The notes under the pieces were generated by a model. That model made no database searches, was not told where the DNA came from, and saw only the letters and a list, made by a program, of their open reading frames with translations. A DNA stretch of 64,000 nt from Gemmatimonadota bacterium (GTDB lineage Bacteria > Gemmatimonadota > Gemmatimonadetes > Gemmatimonadales > GWC2-71-9): the NCBI GenBank assembly GCA_003222195.1, contig QHVB01000027.1, positions 1 through 64,000 on the forward strand, written 5' to 3'. Numbering within the stretch: position 1 is the stretch's first letter; each line of letters begins with the position of its first letter. A program made the translations under genes and the position numbers. Of this stretch, positions 32,913 through 37,913 are shown one piece after another.

Positions 32913-33584
32913 ATGTTCATCGGCCATTACGCGTTGGCTTTGGCGGCGAAGCGTGCCGCGCCGCGCACGAGCCTCGGTACGCTGTTCGTCGCGCCGACGC
33001 TCGCGGATCTGCTGTGGCCCGTGTTCCTCCTGCTCGGCTGGGAGCGCGCGCACGTGGTTCCCGGACCCAATCCGTTCCTGACGCTCTGGCTCGACGACTA
33101 CCCGTACTCACACAGCCTGCTCGCGCTTGTCGTTTGGGGAGCGCTGTTCGGCTACCTCTACAAGACAAAGACAGGAGACAAGCGCGCGGCGCTCGTGATC
33201 GGGTTGCTGGTGGTGAGCCATTGGGTACTCGACTTCGTCACGCATCGGCCCGACATCCAGCTCTATCCTGGCGGAGCGAAGCTTGGACTCGGACTGTGGA
33301 ATTCCCCGGCGGCGACCGTGATCGTCGAGAGCGTGATGCTCATCGCCGGCGTCGCGATCTACGCGCGGGTCACACGCGCGCGGGACGGCATCGGCCGCTG
33401 GGGACTGTGGGGACTGGTCGTGCTGCTCGCTGGCTCGTACTACAGCACGCTGTTCACGCCGGCGCCGACCGACATGCGTGCGACGGCCATTTTCGGCATC
33501 ATCTTCGAGTGGCTGTTCGTCCTGATGGCGTGGTGGGTGGATCGGCACCGCGACATCACATCAGGTCATCCAGCACCTCTATAA
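32913..33584 (+). CDS. Multi-pass membrane protein (YdjM-like metal-dependent hydrolase type)
   Basis: 223 aa with GAGGAGA nine bases before the ATG. Conserved His residues occur in MFIGHYALALAAKR, YSHSLLALVVWGAL and VSHWVLDFVTHRPD, as in YdjM-type membrane proteins. About six TM segments are visible. Function is unknown. The end overlaps the convergent aminotransferase by 29 bases. Confidence 0.65.
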   Translation: MFIGHYALALAAKRAAPRTSLGTLFVAPTLADLLWPVFLLLGWERAHVVPGPNPFLTLWLDDYPYSHSLLALVVWGALFGYLYKTKTGDKRAALVIGLLVVSHWVLDFVTHRPDIQLYPGGAKLGLGLWNSPAATVIVESVMLIAGVAIYARVTRARDGIGRWGLWGLVVLLAGSYYSTLFTPAPTDMRATAIFGIIFEWLFVLMAWWVDRHRDITSGHPAPL

Positions 33585-34743
33585 CCTTCTCCATCTCTTC
33601 GACCGTGTTGTAGCAATGCGGCGAGAGCCGGATCGAGCCTTCCCGCAAGCTGCATACGACCCGCGCGCGCTTCATGCCGTGATAGGCTTCGACCGGCTTC
33701 GACGGCGCGATGCAGAGTATGGCGGAACGGTGGCCGTTCTCGGTCGGCGATGTGATCCGCACACCATTCTCTTGCGCCCACCGCACGACGGGCTCGTGAG
33801 TCGCCCGCGTGACTTCGGCAACATCGCGGACCCCGACCTCGAGCAACAGTTGCAGCGACGCCGTCATTCCGACGAAGTCCTGGTAGGGGAGCGTGATCAT
33901 CTCAAAGCGGCGGGCGTCGGAGCGAAACGTCGGGTTGTACTCGGTGAGCCGCGAGAAGTCGTCCGTCCCCTCGAACGCCATCCAGCTCGTGATCGCGGGC
34001 TCGAGTTGGGGGATCAGCTCCTTCCGCACGTACACGAATCCCGACCCCCACGGCGACAACAGCCACTTCTGACCACCGCACGCCAGGATATCGACGGGGG
34101 TCTGGGTCACGTCGAGCACCGAATTGCCGATGCCTTGAATCCCGTCCACGACGAGGTACGTGCCGTTGGCCCGGCAGGCGGCGCTCAATTTCTGCAGATC
34201 GGCGCGATAGCCGTTGGAAAACTGCACGAACGACACGGCGAGCACCCGGACCCGGGGATCGCTCAGCCGCTGCAGCAGGTACTCTTCGTCGGGCCACCCT
34301 TCGGGGCGGCAGCGCGCGATCTCGACCGTGATCCCCTGATCCCGCAGGAGCAACCACGGGTACACGTTGGCCGGGAATTCCTTGTCGGAGAGCAGCACCA
34401 CATCGCCCGGCTTCAGCGGCAGCGCGCGCGCCGCGAGGTTGAGCCCATAGCCGGTGTTGGTTGCGAGCGCGACCTCGGACGGGTCACAGTTGATGAGCTG
34501 CGCAATTCCGAGACGGGCGGCGGCAAGTCCGGCGAACAGCTCACGATCCGGGAGCAGGTGCGGGGCGGTGCGTTTGGCGGTGAATTCGTCGAGTGCGCGA
34601 CGAGTCCGCTCCGGGATCGGCCCGATCGAGGCGTTGTTCAGGTAGATGGTATCGGCCGTCCACGGGAATTCCGCCGTGCGCAGCGCCTTGAACGTCTCGC
34701 GCAGCGCACGTACGTGGGTCGGGTGATAGGCGATTTCCGTCAT
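33556..34743 (-). CDS. Class V aminotransferase / cysteine desulfurase-like PLP enzyme
   Basis: 395 aa. YLNNASIGPIPERTRRAL is the typical start; VVDGIQGIGNSVLDV holds the PLP-binding Asp; CGGQKWLLSPWGSGFVYV holds the PLP-lysine (QKW). The family includes isopenicillin-N epimerase-like and selenocysteine-lyase-like enzymes, and the exact reaction cannot be told. The ATG overlaps the ABC permease stop (ATGA). Confidence 0.88.
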   Translation of the reverse strand: MTEIAYHPTHVRALRETFKALRTAEFPWTADTIYLNNASIGPIPERTRRALDEFTAKRTAPHLLPDRELFAGLAAARLGIAQLINCDPSEVALATNTGYGLNLAARALPLKPGDVVLLSDKEFPANVYPWLLLRDQGITVEIARCRPEGWPDEEYLLQRLSDPRVRVLAVSFVQFSNGYRADLQKLSAACRANGTYLVVDGIQGIGNSVLDVTQTPVDILACGGQKWLLSPWGSGFVYVRKELIPQLEPAITSWMAFEGTDDFSRLTEYNPTFRSDARRFEMITLPYQDFVGMTASLQLLLEVGVRDVAEVTRATHEPVVRWAQENGVRITSPTENGHRSAILCIAPSKPVEAYHGMKRARVVCSLREGSIRLSPHCYNTVEEMEKVIEVLDDLM

Positions 34744-35585
34744 GCGGGGCGGCCCAATCCGTGCACATCGAGGGCGTCACGCAGGCCGTCGCCGAGGAGG
34801 TTGAGTCCCAACACCGCGAGTCCGATCGCCACACCGGGTGCAATCGACACCCACGGGGCGACGCGCAGCAGGTCGCGGCCCTCGGCGACCATCGCGCCCC
34901 ACGACGGGGTCGGCGGCTGCGCGCCGAGTCCGATGAACGACAGCGCCGCCTCGGCCATGATCGCGCCGCCGACGCCGAGGGTGGCCGCAACAATCACCGG
35001 CGCGATCACGTTGGGCAGCAGATGCCGCGTGATGATCCGCGTATCCGACGCGCCGAGCGCCCGCGCCGCCTGCACATATTCGAGCCCGCGTGCGAGCAGA
35101 ACCTGGCCGCGAACGATGCGGGCCATGCCGGCCCAGCCGACGATGCCGATGACCACGAACACGACTGGTAGCGACGGCTTTACGGCGGCGGCGATGGCGA
35201 TCAACAGCAGGAGTGAAGGAAAGGCGAGGGTGACGTCGGCGACGCGCATGATCACCCCGTCGATCCAGCGGCCGTAGAAACCGGCGATGAGGCCGAGCGT
35301 CAGGCCGAGCAGCAGCGCGATGCTCTGGCTGATGAGCCCAACGGCGAGCGACAGCCGGGCGCCATAGAGGACGCGTGACAGCACGTCACGGCCTTGCGCA
35401 TCACTTCCAAACAGAAAGGTATGAGATGGGGGACGGAGACTCGCGGCGAGATCGCCGCGAAAGGGATCGCCCGGCGCGAGCGCGGGGGCCAGTAACGCGA
35501 GTACGGCGAGGATTCCCACGACCCCCAGGCCGAAGCGGGCCCAGGGATCCCGCGCGAGTCGAGTCCAAAAGAGTGGCGCCGGCAT
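34740..35585 (-). CDS. Peptide/nickel-type ABC transporter permease (DppC-like)
   Basis: 281 aa, one TM near the N-terminus and five later, as in DppC/OppC. The start LFWTRLARDPWARFGLGVVGILAVLAL, HTFLFGSDAQGRDVLSRVLYGAR, and the EAA loop QAARALGASDTRIITRHLLPN fit the family. It is odd that no DppB, ATPase or binding protein lies beside it; the partners must be elsewhere, or this is an orphan. Followed directly by the aminotransferase. Confidence 0.9.
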   Translation of the reverse strand: MPAPLFWTRLARDPWARFGLGVVGILAVLALLAPALAPGDPFRGDLAASLRPPSHTFLFGSDAQGRDVLSRVLYGARLSLAVGLISQSIALLLGLTLGLIAGFYGRWIDGVIMRVADVTLAFPSLLLLIAIAAAVKPSLPVVFVVIGIVGWAGMARIVRGQVLLARGLEYVQAARALGASDTRIITRHLLPNVIAPVIVAATLGVGGAIMAEAALSFIGLGAQPPTPSWGAMVAEGRDLLRVAPWVSIAPGVAIGLAVLGLNLLGDGLRDALDVHGLGRPA

Positions 35586-35640: not shown

Positions 35641-36723
35641 GTGAAACGCGATACACCGTTCACCCTCGTACTGGGCGGCGGCGGGATGAAGGGGCTCGCC
35701 CATATCGGCGTGATTCAAGCGCTCCTCGAGCGCGGCCATCGCCCCACCCGGATCGTCGGGTCGAGCGTGGGCGCGCTCGTCGGCGCGGCCTGGGCAGGCG
35801 GGATGGGGATCGCCAAGCTGCGCGAGATCGCCCTCGGCCTGAGGCGCAAAGACGTGTTTGCCGTCGCGCACGCCGACATGGCCTTCAAGCGCATGCGCTC
35901 GCCCGCCCTGTTCCGGCGCGAGCCGCTCGAGCAGCTCATCGCCCGCACCGTCGGCGATCTCACGTTCCAGCAGCTCGATCCGCCCGTCATCGTGAACACG
36001 GTTGATTTGAACTCCGGGATGGAGGTGTTCTGGGGGCTGCCCGGCCTCGACGACATCCGCGTGGCGGACGCCGTCTTCGCCTCTTGCGCGCTGCCCGGCT
36101 ATTTCCCGCCGCACGAGATCGGCGGCCGCTTCTACGTCGACGGCGCGGTCGTGGCGAACGTCCCATTCGACGCCGCCCGCGCCTTGGGCCCCGAGCTGAT
36201 CGTTGCGGTGGACGTCTCCGCCTCGAGCGTGCTGACCGCCGACGCGCAGGACGAAGGCTTCGCGGAGGTGTTCGCGCGCGCGACCGAGATCCTGATGACG
36301 ACACTGCTCGAGCAACGCGTGCGCACCTGGACCACGCCGCCGGTCTACTATATCCAACCGCGCGTCGAGCATGTGACGATGTTTTCGTTCGATCACCTCC
36401 GCGAGGAAGTCGAGGAGGGCTATCGCGCGACGAGCGCGGCGCTCGACCGCGCCGACGAATGGCCCGAGCCCGGCGACGTGGGGATTTTCCCCAAGCGGCG
36501 CGTGATCGTGCGGGTGGAGCGGGAGCGTTGCATCGGCTGTGGGGCGTGCCTGGTGCACGGCCCACAGGGAATGTTCGTGCTGGACTCGGATCGCAAGGCG
36601 GTGGTGACGCAGCCGGATCAGGAATGGTCGCCGATGGACGGCGGCTACATCCGGCACTGCCCGACTTACGCGATCATCGCGCGGCCGGCGGGTCAGGCAA
36701 AAGAGATGCGGAGATCAGGCTGA
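35641..36723 (+). CDS. Patatin-like phospholipase with C-terminal ferredoxin-like cluster
   Basis: 360 aa. The oxyanion motif GGGGMKGLAHIG (residues 12-23) and nucleophile motif GSSVG (S42) precede VDGAVVANVPFDAARALG, the catalytic Asp. At about residue 294 the lipase ends and a ferredoxin-like tail begins: C297, C300, C303 (CIGCGAC) and C340 with Pro (HCP), a complete CxxCxxC...CP pattern for one iron-sulfur cluster. I chose the GTG at 35641; an ATG at 35584 in frame would overlap the divergent permease start. The fusion is unusual. Confidence 0.88.
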   Translation: MKRDTPFTLVLGGGGMKGLAHIGVIQALLERGHRPTRIVGSSVGALVGAAWAGGMGIAKLREIALGLRRKDVFAVAHADMAFKRMRSPALFRREPLEQLIARTVGDLTFQQLDPPVIVNTVDLNSGMEVFWGLPGLDDIRVADAVFASCALPGYFPPHEIGGRFYVDGAVVANVPFDAARALGPELIVAVDVSASSVLTADAQDEGFAEVFARATEILMTTLLEQRVRTWTTPPVYYIQPRVEHVTMFSFDHLREEVEEGYRATSAALDRADEWPEPGDVGIFPKRRVIVRVERERCIGCGACLVHGPQGMFVLDSDRKAVVTQPDQEWSPMDGGYIRHCPTYAIIARPAGQAKEMRRSG

Positions 36724-36734
36724 GCGATTGAAGG

Positions 36735-37913
36735 CTAAGAGGAGACTTGTGATTCGATGTCCCGCAGGTCGCGGATCACACGGTCCCAGTTGTAATAGGT
36801 CTCGATTGCCTTGCGGCCCGCCTGGCCGAGCCGGCGTGCGAACAGCTGATCGCCGAACAAGCGTTTGAGCGCCGCCACGACCGCGACGGGCTCATCAGGA
36901 TCGACGACGAGCCCCGTTTCCCCGTCGTTCACCGCCTCGGCCAGGCCCCCGGATTGACCCGCGATTACCGGCAGCCCGCACGCGCTGGCCTCGGCGAGCG
37001 CGACGCCGAAGCCCTCCACGCGCGAACCGTCGGCGCGGCGCGATACGCCGACGTAGACATTGGCGATGTTGAAGACCGCGGGCAGCTCCGCCTCCGGCAC
37101 GTTCCCGACAAAACGGACGTGGTTGCCAAGGTTCAGCTCTGCGGCGAGCCGCTGATACTCTTTGCGTTTCTTGCCGTTGCCTACCACCAGATAGTTCACG
37201 TCCATTCCATCGTTGCGGCATTGCGCCACCGCGCGGAGGGCGGTGTCGACACCCTTGTACGGTTCGAGTCGAGCGACGGTGAGCGCCCACGTTCCGCCGT
37301 TCACGCCATAGCGCTCCCGCACTGCGTGCGTGTCGATCCCAGGCCGGAACTGCTCGGGATCGGTGCCGAGCGGCACGAGTCGCACGCGCTCGGCGAGGGG
37401 ATCGAGTCCCAACTCGCGCAACACCTTCTGCGCCTGCTCACGGGTCCATTGGCTGTTTGCGACTACGGCGTCGGCGGAGCCCAACAGGGCCTTTGCGGTC
37501 TTCCGCGCGAAGCGCGAGTGATGGATCGCATGCAGCTCCTTCAGCAGATCACCGCCGTGCACGAACACGCCGTACTTCGTCCCGACGCGTTCGTGCATCC
37601 ATTTCGCGGGATACGTGCAGGGGCGGATCGAGTCGCACCAGGCGAAGCGCGGCTTGTGCTGCCGCGCGAGCGAGGCGACCCGCCGCGACCAGAACAACAG
37701 CCCCGCGAGATTGCGCAGCGCCTTGCTCGGCACCGGGAGCCGGTCCACAACCGCGCCGCTGAAGCGCACATCCGAGTCCTGTGAGTCCCGATGCTGGCCG
37801 GTGGAGACGAGCAACTCACCGCGCGGATAGCGGCGCGTGACTTCGCCCATCATCCGCGCGATGCCGGTCGGCATCGGGGGGAACTCGGCCGTCAGTAAGA
37901 AAGTCCTAGCCAT
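36735..37913 (-). CDS. Glycosyltransferase family 4
   Basis: 392 aa, GT-B fold. The N-terminal start LLTAEFPPMPTGIARMMGEV is typical. The sugar-nucleotide domain has WALTVARLEPYKGVDTALRA, HVRFVGNVPEAELPAVFNIA and the E-x7-E motif EGFGVALAEASACGLPVIAGQSGG. It transfers a sugar in envelope glycan synthesis; donor and acceptor unknown. It is separated by 125 bases from the plus-strand GT4 genes. Confidence 0.9.
   Translation of the reverse strand: MARTFLLTAEFPPMPTGIARMMGEVTRRYPRGELLVSTGQHRDSQDSDVRFSGAVVDRLPVPSKALRNLAGLLFWSRRVASLARQHKPRFAWCDSIRPCTYPAKWMHERVGTKYGVFVHGGDLLKELHAIHHSRFARKTAKALLGSADAVVANSQWTREQAQKVLRELGLDPLAERVRLVPLGTDPEQFRPGIDTHAVRERYGVNGGTWALTVARLEPYKGVDTALRAVAQCRNDGMDVNYLVVGNGKKRKEYQRLAAELNLGNHVRFVGNVPEAELPAVFNIANVYVGVSRRADGSRVEGFGVALAEASACGLPVIAGQSGGLAEAVNDGETGLVVDPDEPVAVVAALKRLFGDQLFARRLGQAGRKAIETYYNWDRVIRDLRDIESQVSS

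Follow-up and report, generated by a model that had tools for sequence, protein, structure and literature searches.

A patatin-like acyl hydrolase joined to a single-cluster ferredoxin domain and conserved across the Gemmatimonadales

A gene that joins a patatin-like acyl hydrolase to a ferredoxin-like domain lies on the forward strand of the window, by which we mean the whole 64,000-nt stretch of DNA that was analysed (Table 1). The GTG at 35641 is the start of the gene, and nearly all orthologues start at the same aligned position. The gene stands alone: the permease and aminotransferase genes run divergently from it on one side, and the glycosyltransferase gene converges on it from the other. 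Fused orthologues were found in three families of Gemmatimonadales (here f1, f2 and f3), and the class-V PLP enzyme is kept close to the fused patatin in f1, f3 and part of f2. This neighbour was also considered as a SufS, which would place a direct Fe-S link in the window, and was rejected (106.9 bits with the sufS model, against a cut-off of 475.1). The SUF operon of the window genome lies on a different contig from the fusion gene. By its relatives, this genome is judged to be a MAG of a soil Gemmatimonadota bacterium.

Table 1. Coordinates of the fusion gene, its parts and neighbours, and of the loci of sister families in which a patatin adjoins a SUF operon.
Feature	Position	Strand	Basis or remark
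Fusion gene	35641..36723	+	360 aa, GTG start to stop
Patatin-like acyl hydrolase domain, residues 1-275	35641..36465	+	PF01734; PlpD 5fya fold match
Oxyanion-hole glycines G12-G15	35674..35685	+	G13, G14 and G15 invariant in 38 aligned orthologues
Catalytic Ser42 in GSSVG (G40-x-S42-x-G44), predicted	35764..35766	+	Invariant in fused family and tail-less sisters
Catalytic Asp167 in DGA, predicted	36139..36141	+	Invariant in fused family and tail-less sisters
Linker, residues 276-287, conserved G281 and P284	36466..36501	+	pLDDT > 90; near-invariant residues
Single-cluster ferredoxin domain, residues 288-350	36502..36690	+	Fer4_15 over cut-off; 1vjw fold; dN/dS 0.03-0.26
Cluster ligand Cys297	36529..36531	+	Orthologue conservation
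Cluster ligand Cys300	36538..36540	+	Orthologue conservation
Cluster ligand Cys303	36547..36549	+	Orthologue conservation
Cluster ligand Cys340, then Pro341	36658..36660	+	Orthologue conservation
OppC/DppC-type permease, divergent neighbour	34740..35585	-	PF00528, PF12911
Class-V (PLP) aminotransferase, conserved neighbour	33556..34743	-	PF00266
GT4 glycosyltransferase, convergent neighbour	36735..37913	-	PF00534
Tail-less patatin and SUF operon, families f4-f6	L133-L144, L146, e.g. L141:6004-12762		Patatin divergent from sufC-sufB-sufD-Rieske-sufS-sufU

The N-terminal part of the protein was matched by Pfam Patatin (PF01734) with 128.7 bits against a cut-off of 27.7 (E 4e-37). An AlphaFold2 model was built from 38 orthologues, and its patatin half was superimposed on PlpD (5fya) with Z 31.1 and an rmsd of 2.7 over 249 aligned residues (29% identity); fold comparison of the predicted model with potato patatin (4pkb) gave Z 24.9. 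The GGGG stretch is the oxyanion loop of the patatin domain, and Ser42 and Asp167, as read from the sequence, would form its catalytic dyad. The lipase motifs, S42 included, had been described in the earlier note as intact, and so they proved to be: G12-G15 and G40-x-S42-x-G44 stand as numbered, and S42 and D167 are both invariant. Acyl hydrolase activity of the window protein is very likely. One further Cys is invariant in the fused family: C149 in ASCALPG (36085-36087), which lies in the lipase domain, does not belong to the cluster set and is a possible second redox-sensitive site.

The tail of the window protein scored 24.0 bits with Fer4_15, over the Pfam cut-off of 22.4; in relatives the same model gave 33.3 and 33.9 bits, and 17.3 bits in one distant relative. 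Residues 291-345 were aligned with the single-cluster ferredoxin I 1dwl (phmmer against PDB, E 7e-5), and the tail matched the Thermotoga maritima [4Fe-4S] ferredoxin 1vjw with Z 9.1 and an rmsd of 1.4 over 56 residues (41% identity). Other near folds were P450-type ferredoxins, including M. tuberculosis Fdx and the CYP194A4-associated ferredoxin. Two tail residues that are not ligands, W329 and P331, are conserved as well, in a W329-S-P stretch. The complete set of four Cys ascribed to the tail (297, 300, 303 and 340-Pro) was found at just those positions, and the wider reading of the earlier note, that a patatin is joined to a one-cluster ferredoxin-like tail, was borne out, both domains being over curated cut-offs and their folds matching. 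The AlphaFold2 model had a mean pLDDT of 91.2, a pTM of 0.89 and a linker pLDDT above 90; the high pTM and linker pLDDT suggest that the two domains are held in a fixed relative orientation. The nearest ferredoxin of the window genome is a separate Fer4_15-like protein (L003; G000:C1:10974-11126, reverse strand), in which CVGFGDC replaces CxxCxxC and the second ligand Cys is absent, as in [3Fe-4S] types. Compared with this protein, the fused domain is the more complete cluster type.

That the Cys might not be conserved among orthologues, a prospect raised at the outset, was examined and did not hold: all four are present in 114 of the 118 distinct uncut orthologues from the three families, and the fused orthologues diverge to about 41% overall identity. 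The exceptions are L086 and L087 (tail deletion), L088 (broken end) and L030 (assembly split at an N-run). The dN/dS of the ferredoxin region was similar to or below that of the lipase region in nearly all comparisons (range in Table 1), and the last ten residues of the fusion protein were under relaxed selection. Because the four Cys are conserved and the ferredoxin region shows these dN/dS values, the tail is read as selected and not as decoration. A chance fusion, or one produced as an artefact of MAG assembly, was ruled out by the conservation, the dN/dS and the many independent assemblies. A ferredoxin-like tail that carries no Fe-S cluster in the cell, being either apo or occupied by another metal, is very improbable, given that four Cys with ferredoxin spacing are kept despite such divergence and that Fer4_15 is over its cut-off. 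In all probability the tail binds an Fe-S cluster.

Patatin matches were obtained in all 101 family-level genomes, mostly as full-length fusions. In a sample of 395 genomes of the phylum, all those among the matches listed that run through the tail belong to the same order (f1, f2 and f3). In the other families sampled from the class, the best matches were 30-43% identical and ended at residues 251-287, before the tail; no Fer4 motif was found downstream of the patatins of these sampled families. The distribution scans covered Gemmatimonadota, and the contig scan, which used a single-sequence query, reached close relatives only. A mobile or phage origin was rejected, the fused form being absent from plasmids (of 72 records, none covers 80% of the query), phages and IMG/VR. 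Genomes carrying the fusion include G112 (locus L150) and G161 (locus L148). The fusion is confirmed as real and conserved order-wide in Gemmatimonadales.

In the patatin-domain tree, the fused proteins of all three families (f1-f3) form one group with moderate support (90/81). The tail-less L086 and L087 nest inside the fused clade and are for that reason read as a secondary loss of the tail. The tail-less sister group (99/99) consists of the second patatin of Gemmatimonadales and of patatins from other families. L086 and L087 represent one genus of two species, in which the tail deletion is clean (L086:3411-4253; L087:4971-5813) and S42 and D167 are intact; no Fer4 motif was found elsewhere in the fetched loci of either. 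This genus is a natural control for the function of the tail. Since it dropped the tail within the fused clade and kept the catalytic residues, the tail is best regarded as an accessory, an add-on to the hydrolase. The residues specific to the fused clade were only those at positions 73, 80, 84, 141, 153, 173, 207 and 208; their use as an interface map was abandoned as uninformative, because all eight are also kept in the genus that lost the tail.

These observations bear on whether the Fe-S domain has a purely structural part, as a stabiliser of the protein or as an interface for a dimer or a partner, with no sensing. Structural clusters of this kind occur in some DNA glycosylases and amidotransferases. 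The sister patatins, about 40% identical, have no tail, nor does one genus of the fused clade, and a labile cluster would be a poor mere staple where ordinary tail-less patatins are also used; a purely structural cluster is accordingly rather improbable, even though the predicted fixed docking, the strong purifying selection and the conservation of W329 and P331, neither of them a ligand, would all agree with it.

In sister families f4-f6, all 13 genomes sampled have the tail-less patatin paired divergently with a SUF operon, the 5' ends of the two lying 152-385 bp apart. The sufB, sufC, sufS and sufU genes of this operon were confirmed against curated cut-offs. A palindrome around AGAATCATTCT is shared by the patatin/SUF intergenic regions (L133-L146, e.g. 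L141:7013-7022) and lies directly downstream of a TTGAC/TACGTT-like promoter that reads toward sufC. From its resemblance we take this palindrome to be a putative Fur-type operator. The palindrome core was absent from the fetched fused-gene loci, with no close form in the window, and no Fur-like box was found within the 64,000 nt. A literature search for a patatin linked divergently to a SUF operon found none. The tree places the SUF-paired patatins beside the second, tail-less patatin of Gemmatimonadales and not with the fused clade, to which their association with SUF may therefore not extend. Of 17 f2 loci, 14 (L149-L151, L153-L162 and L166) have the fused gene upstream of, and on the same strand as, the aconitase gene (acnA), at a distance of 100-349 nt in seven of them. 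Aconitase is a [4Fe-4S] enzyme, and this arrangement was counted in favour of Fe-S control. Neither SUF nor aconitase was found in the fetched flanks of the f1 and f3 fused genes.

The protein would be an intracellular patatin-type acyl hydrolase (phospholipase, lysophospholipase or acylesterase) against which a C-terminal [4Fe-4S] ferredoxin domain is docked. An intact cluster would keep the enzyme in one state; if the cluster were lost or altered (through O2, ROS, NO or iron shortage), the activity, membrane access or lifetime of the enzyme would shift, and lipid turnover would thereby be tied to Fe-S status. Since electrons play no part in patatin hydrolysis, a catalytic role for the cluster is unlikely. 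An element of control or stability fits best, because the domains appear docked, the ligands are invariant and loss of the tail spares the catalytic site. Our tentative reading, at somewhat less than even chances, is that the cluster is not a catalytic cofactor and that it makes the control or stability of an intracellular acyl hydrolase dependent on iron, O2 or redox state. A redox or Fe-S switch, one of the two roles put forward in the earlier note, is indirectly supported by the confidently predicted, high-pLDDT linker, the loss of the tail with intact catalytic residues and the SUF pairing of the sister patatins. Points against this reading are the tree position of the SUF-paired patatins, the separate contig of SUF in the window genome, the lack of a Fur-like box in the window and the full CxxCxxC...CP set of the tail, which is that of electron-transfer ferredoxins.

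The ferredoxin domain could instead be a tether for electron transfer, the other role put forward in the note, and carry single electrons for a separate enzyme (an oxygenase, desaturase or reductase) that works on the acyl product or the lipid substrate, with the patatin supplying the substrate or the contact with lipid. Electron-transfer ferredoxins are among the nearest folds, some of them P450-linked (M. tuberculosis Fdx, CYP194A4-associated), and the full CxxCxxC...CP set that is typical of such ferredoxins is kept, with four Cys and the CP. However, the conserved neighbours seen in the three fused families (f1-f3) include no oxygenase, desaturase, P450 or ferredoxin reductase, the linker is short and predicted to be rigid rather than flexible, and the fused enzyme's own reaction has no need of electrons. 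We consider such a tether unlikely.

The control reading may be extended to a lipid acyl hydrolase gated by its own [4Fe-4S] cluster and, more widely, to an axis between patatins and SUF, where the tail-less sisters would be co-regulated with Fe-S assembly from the shared intergenic region; this extended proposal is possible but doubtful. A conserved Fe-S-gated lipase, if true, would be a direct link of lipid turnover to iron and oxygen status. The idea is open to test, since the fusion is spread over the Gemmatimonadales and is present in at least one finished genome, apparently of a cultured type strain, and the SUF pairing of the sister enzymes is an independent handle on the role of widespread, functionally obscure bacterial patatins.

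By the features tested, the window protein is a true patatin with a true single-cluster ferredoxin domain, and is not RssA, CapV or PlpD. The closest solved patatin fold is the patatin passenger of PlpD from Pseudomonas aeruginosa (5fqu, 5fya), which has the same catalytic dyad. PlpD is secreted as a type Vd autotransporter and has POTRA and barrel domains; in the window protein no signal peptide is visible by eye, and there is a ferredoxin tail instead. A secreted patatin of the PlpD type was rejected, as the window protein opens with the first strand of the patatin domain, stops after the ferredoxin domain and lacks a POTRA/beta-barrel. The best NCBIfam relatives are the RssA-type patatins (NF007623, COG1752), which have a single cytoplasmic patatin domain; identity as RssA was rejected at 91.7 bits against an equivalog cut-off of 272, and RssA has no Fe-S domain. 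The CBASS effector CapV (NF041079) was rejected at 65.2 against 200 bits, with no cyclase among the annotated neighbours. The SUF-paired patatin of f4-f6 has a patatin domain about 40% identical to that of the fused protein and the same catalytic residues, but it has no Fe-S tail, adjoins SUF and stands nearer in the tree to the second patatin of Gemmatimonadales.

Patatin-like hydrolases are switched by nucleotides, partner proteins and ubiquitin; an Fe-S cluster built into such an enzyme is not known to us. No description of a patatin combined with a ferredoxin or Fe-S domain was found in the open literature, that on redox switches of lipases included. As a precedent, in the Bacillus-type glutamine PRPP amidotransferase, whose chemistry needs no electrons, an O2-labile, non-redox [4Fe-4S] cluster controls the lifetime of the enzyme. 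A cluster has been described in a plant homologue of this amidotransferase (PMC7056826). Its fold is unrelated to that of the window protein, and the comparison is one of analogy only. The single-cluster [4Fe-4S] ferredoxins (1vjw; Desulfovibrio Fd I 1dwl; Fer4_15, Fer4_13) share the CxxCxxC...CP motif and the whole fold with residues 288-347. Those ferredoxins are free electron carriers, whereas the domain in the window protein is linked to a hydrolase by a covalent and apparently rigid connection and bears the conserved W329-S-P.
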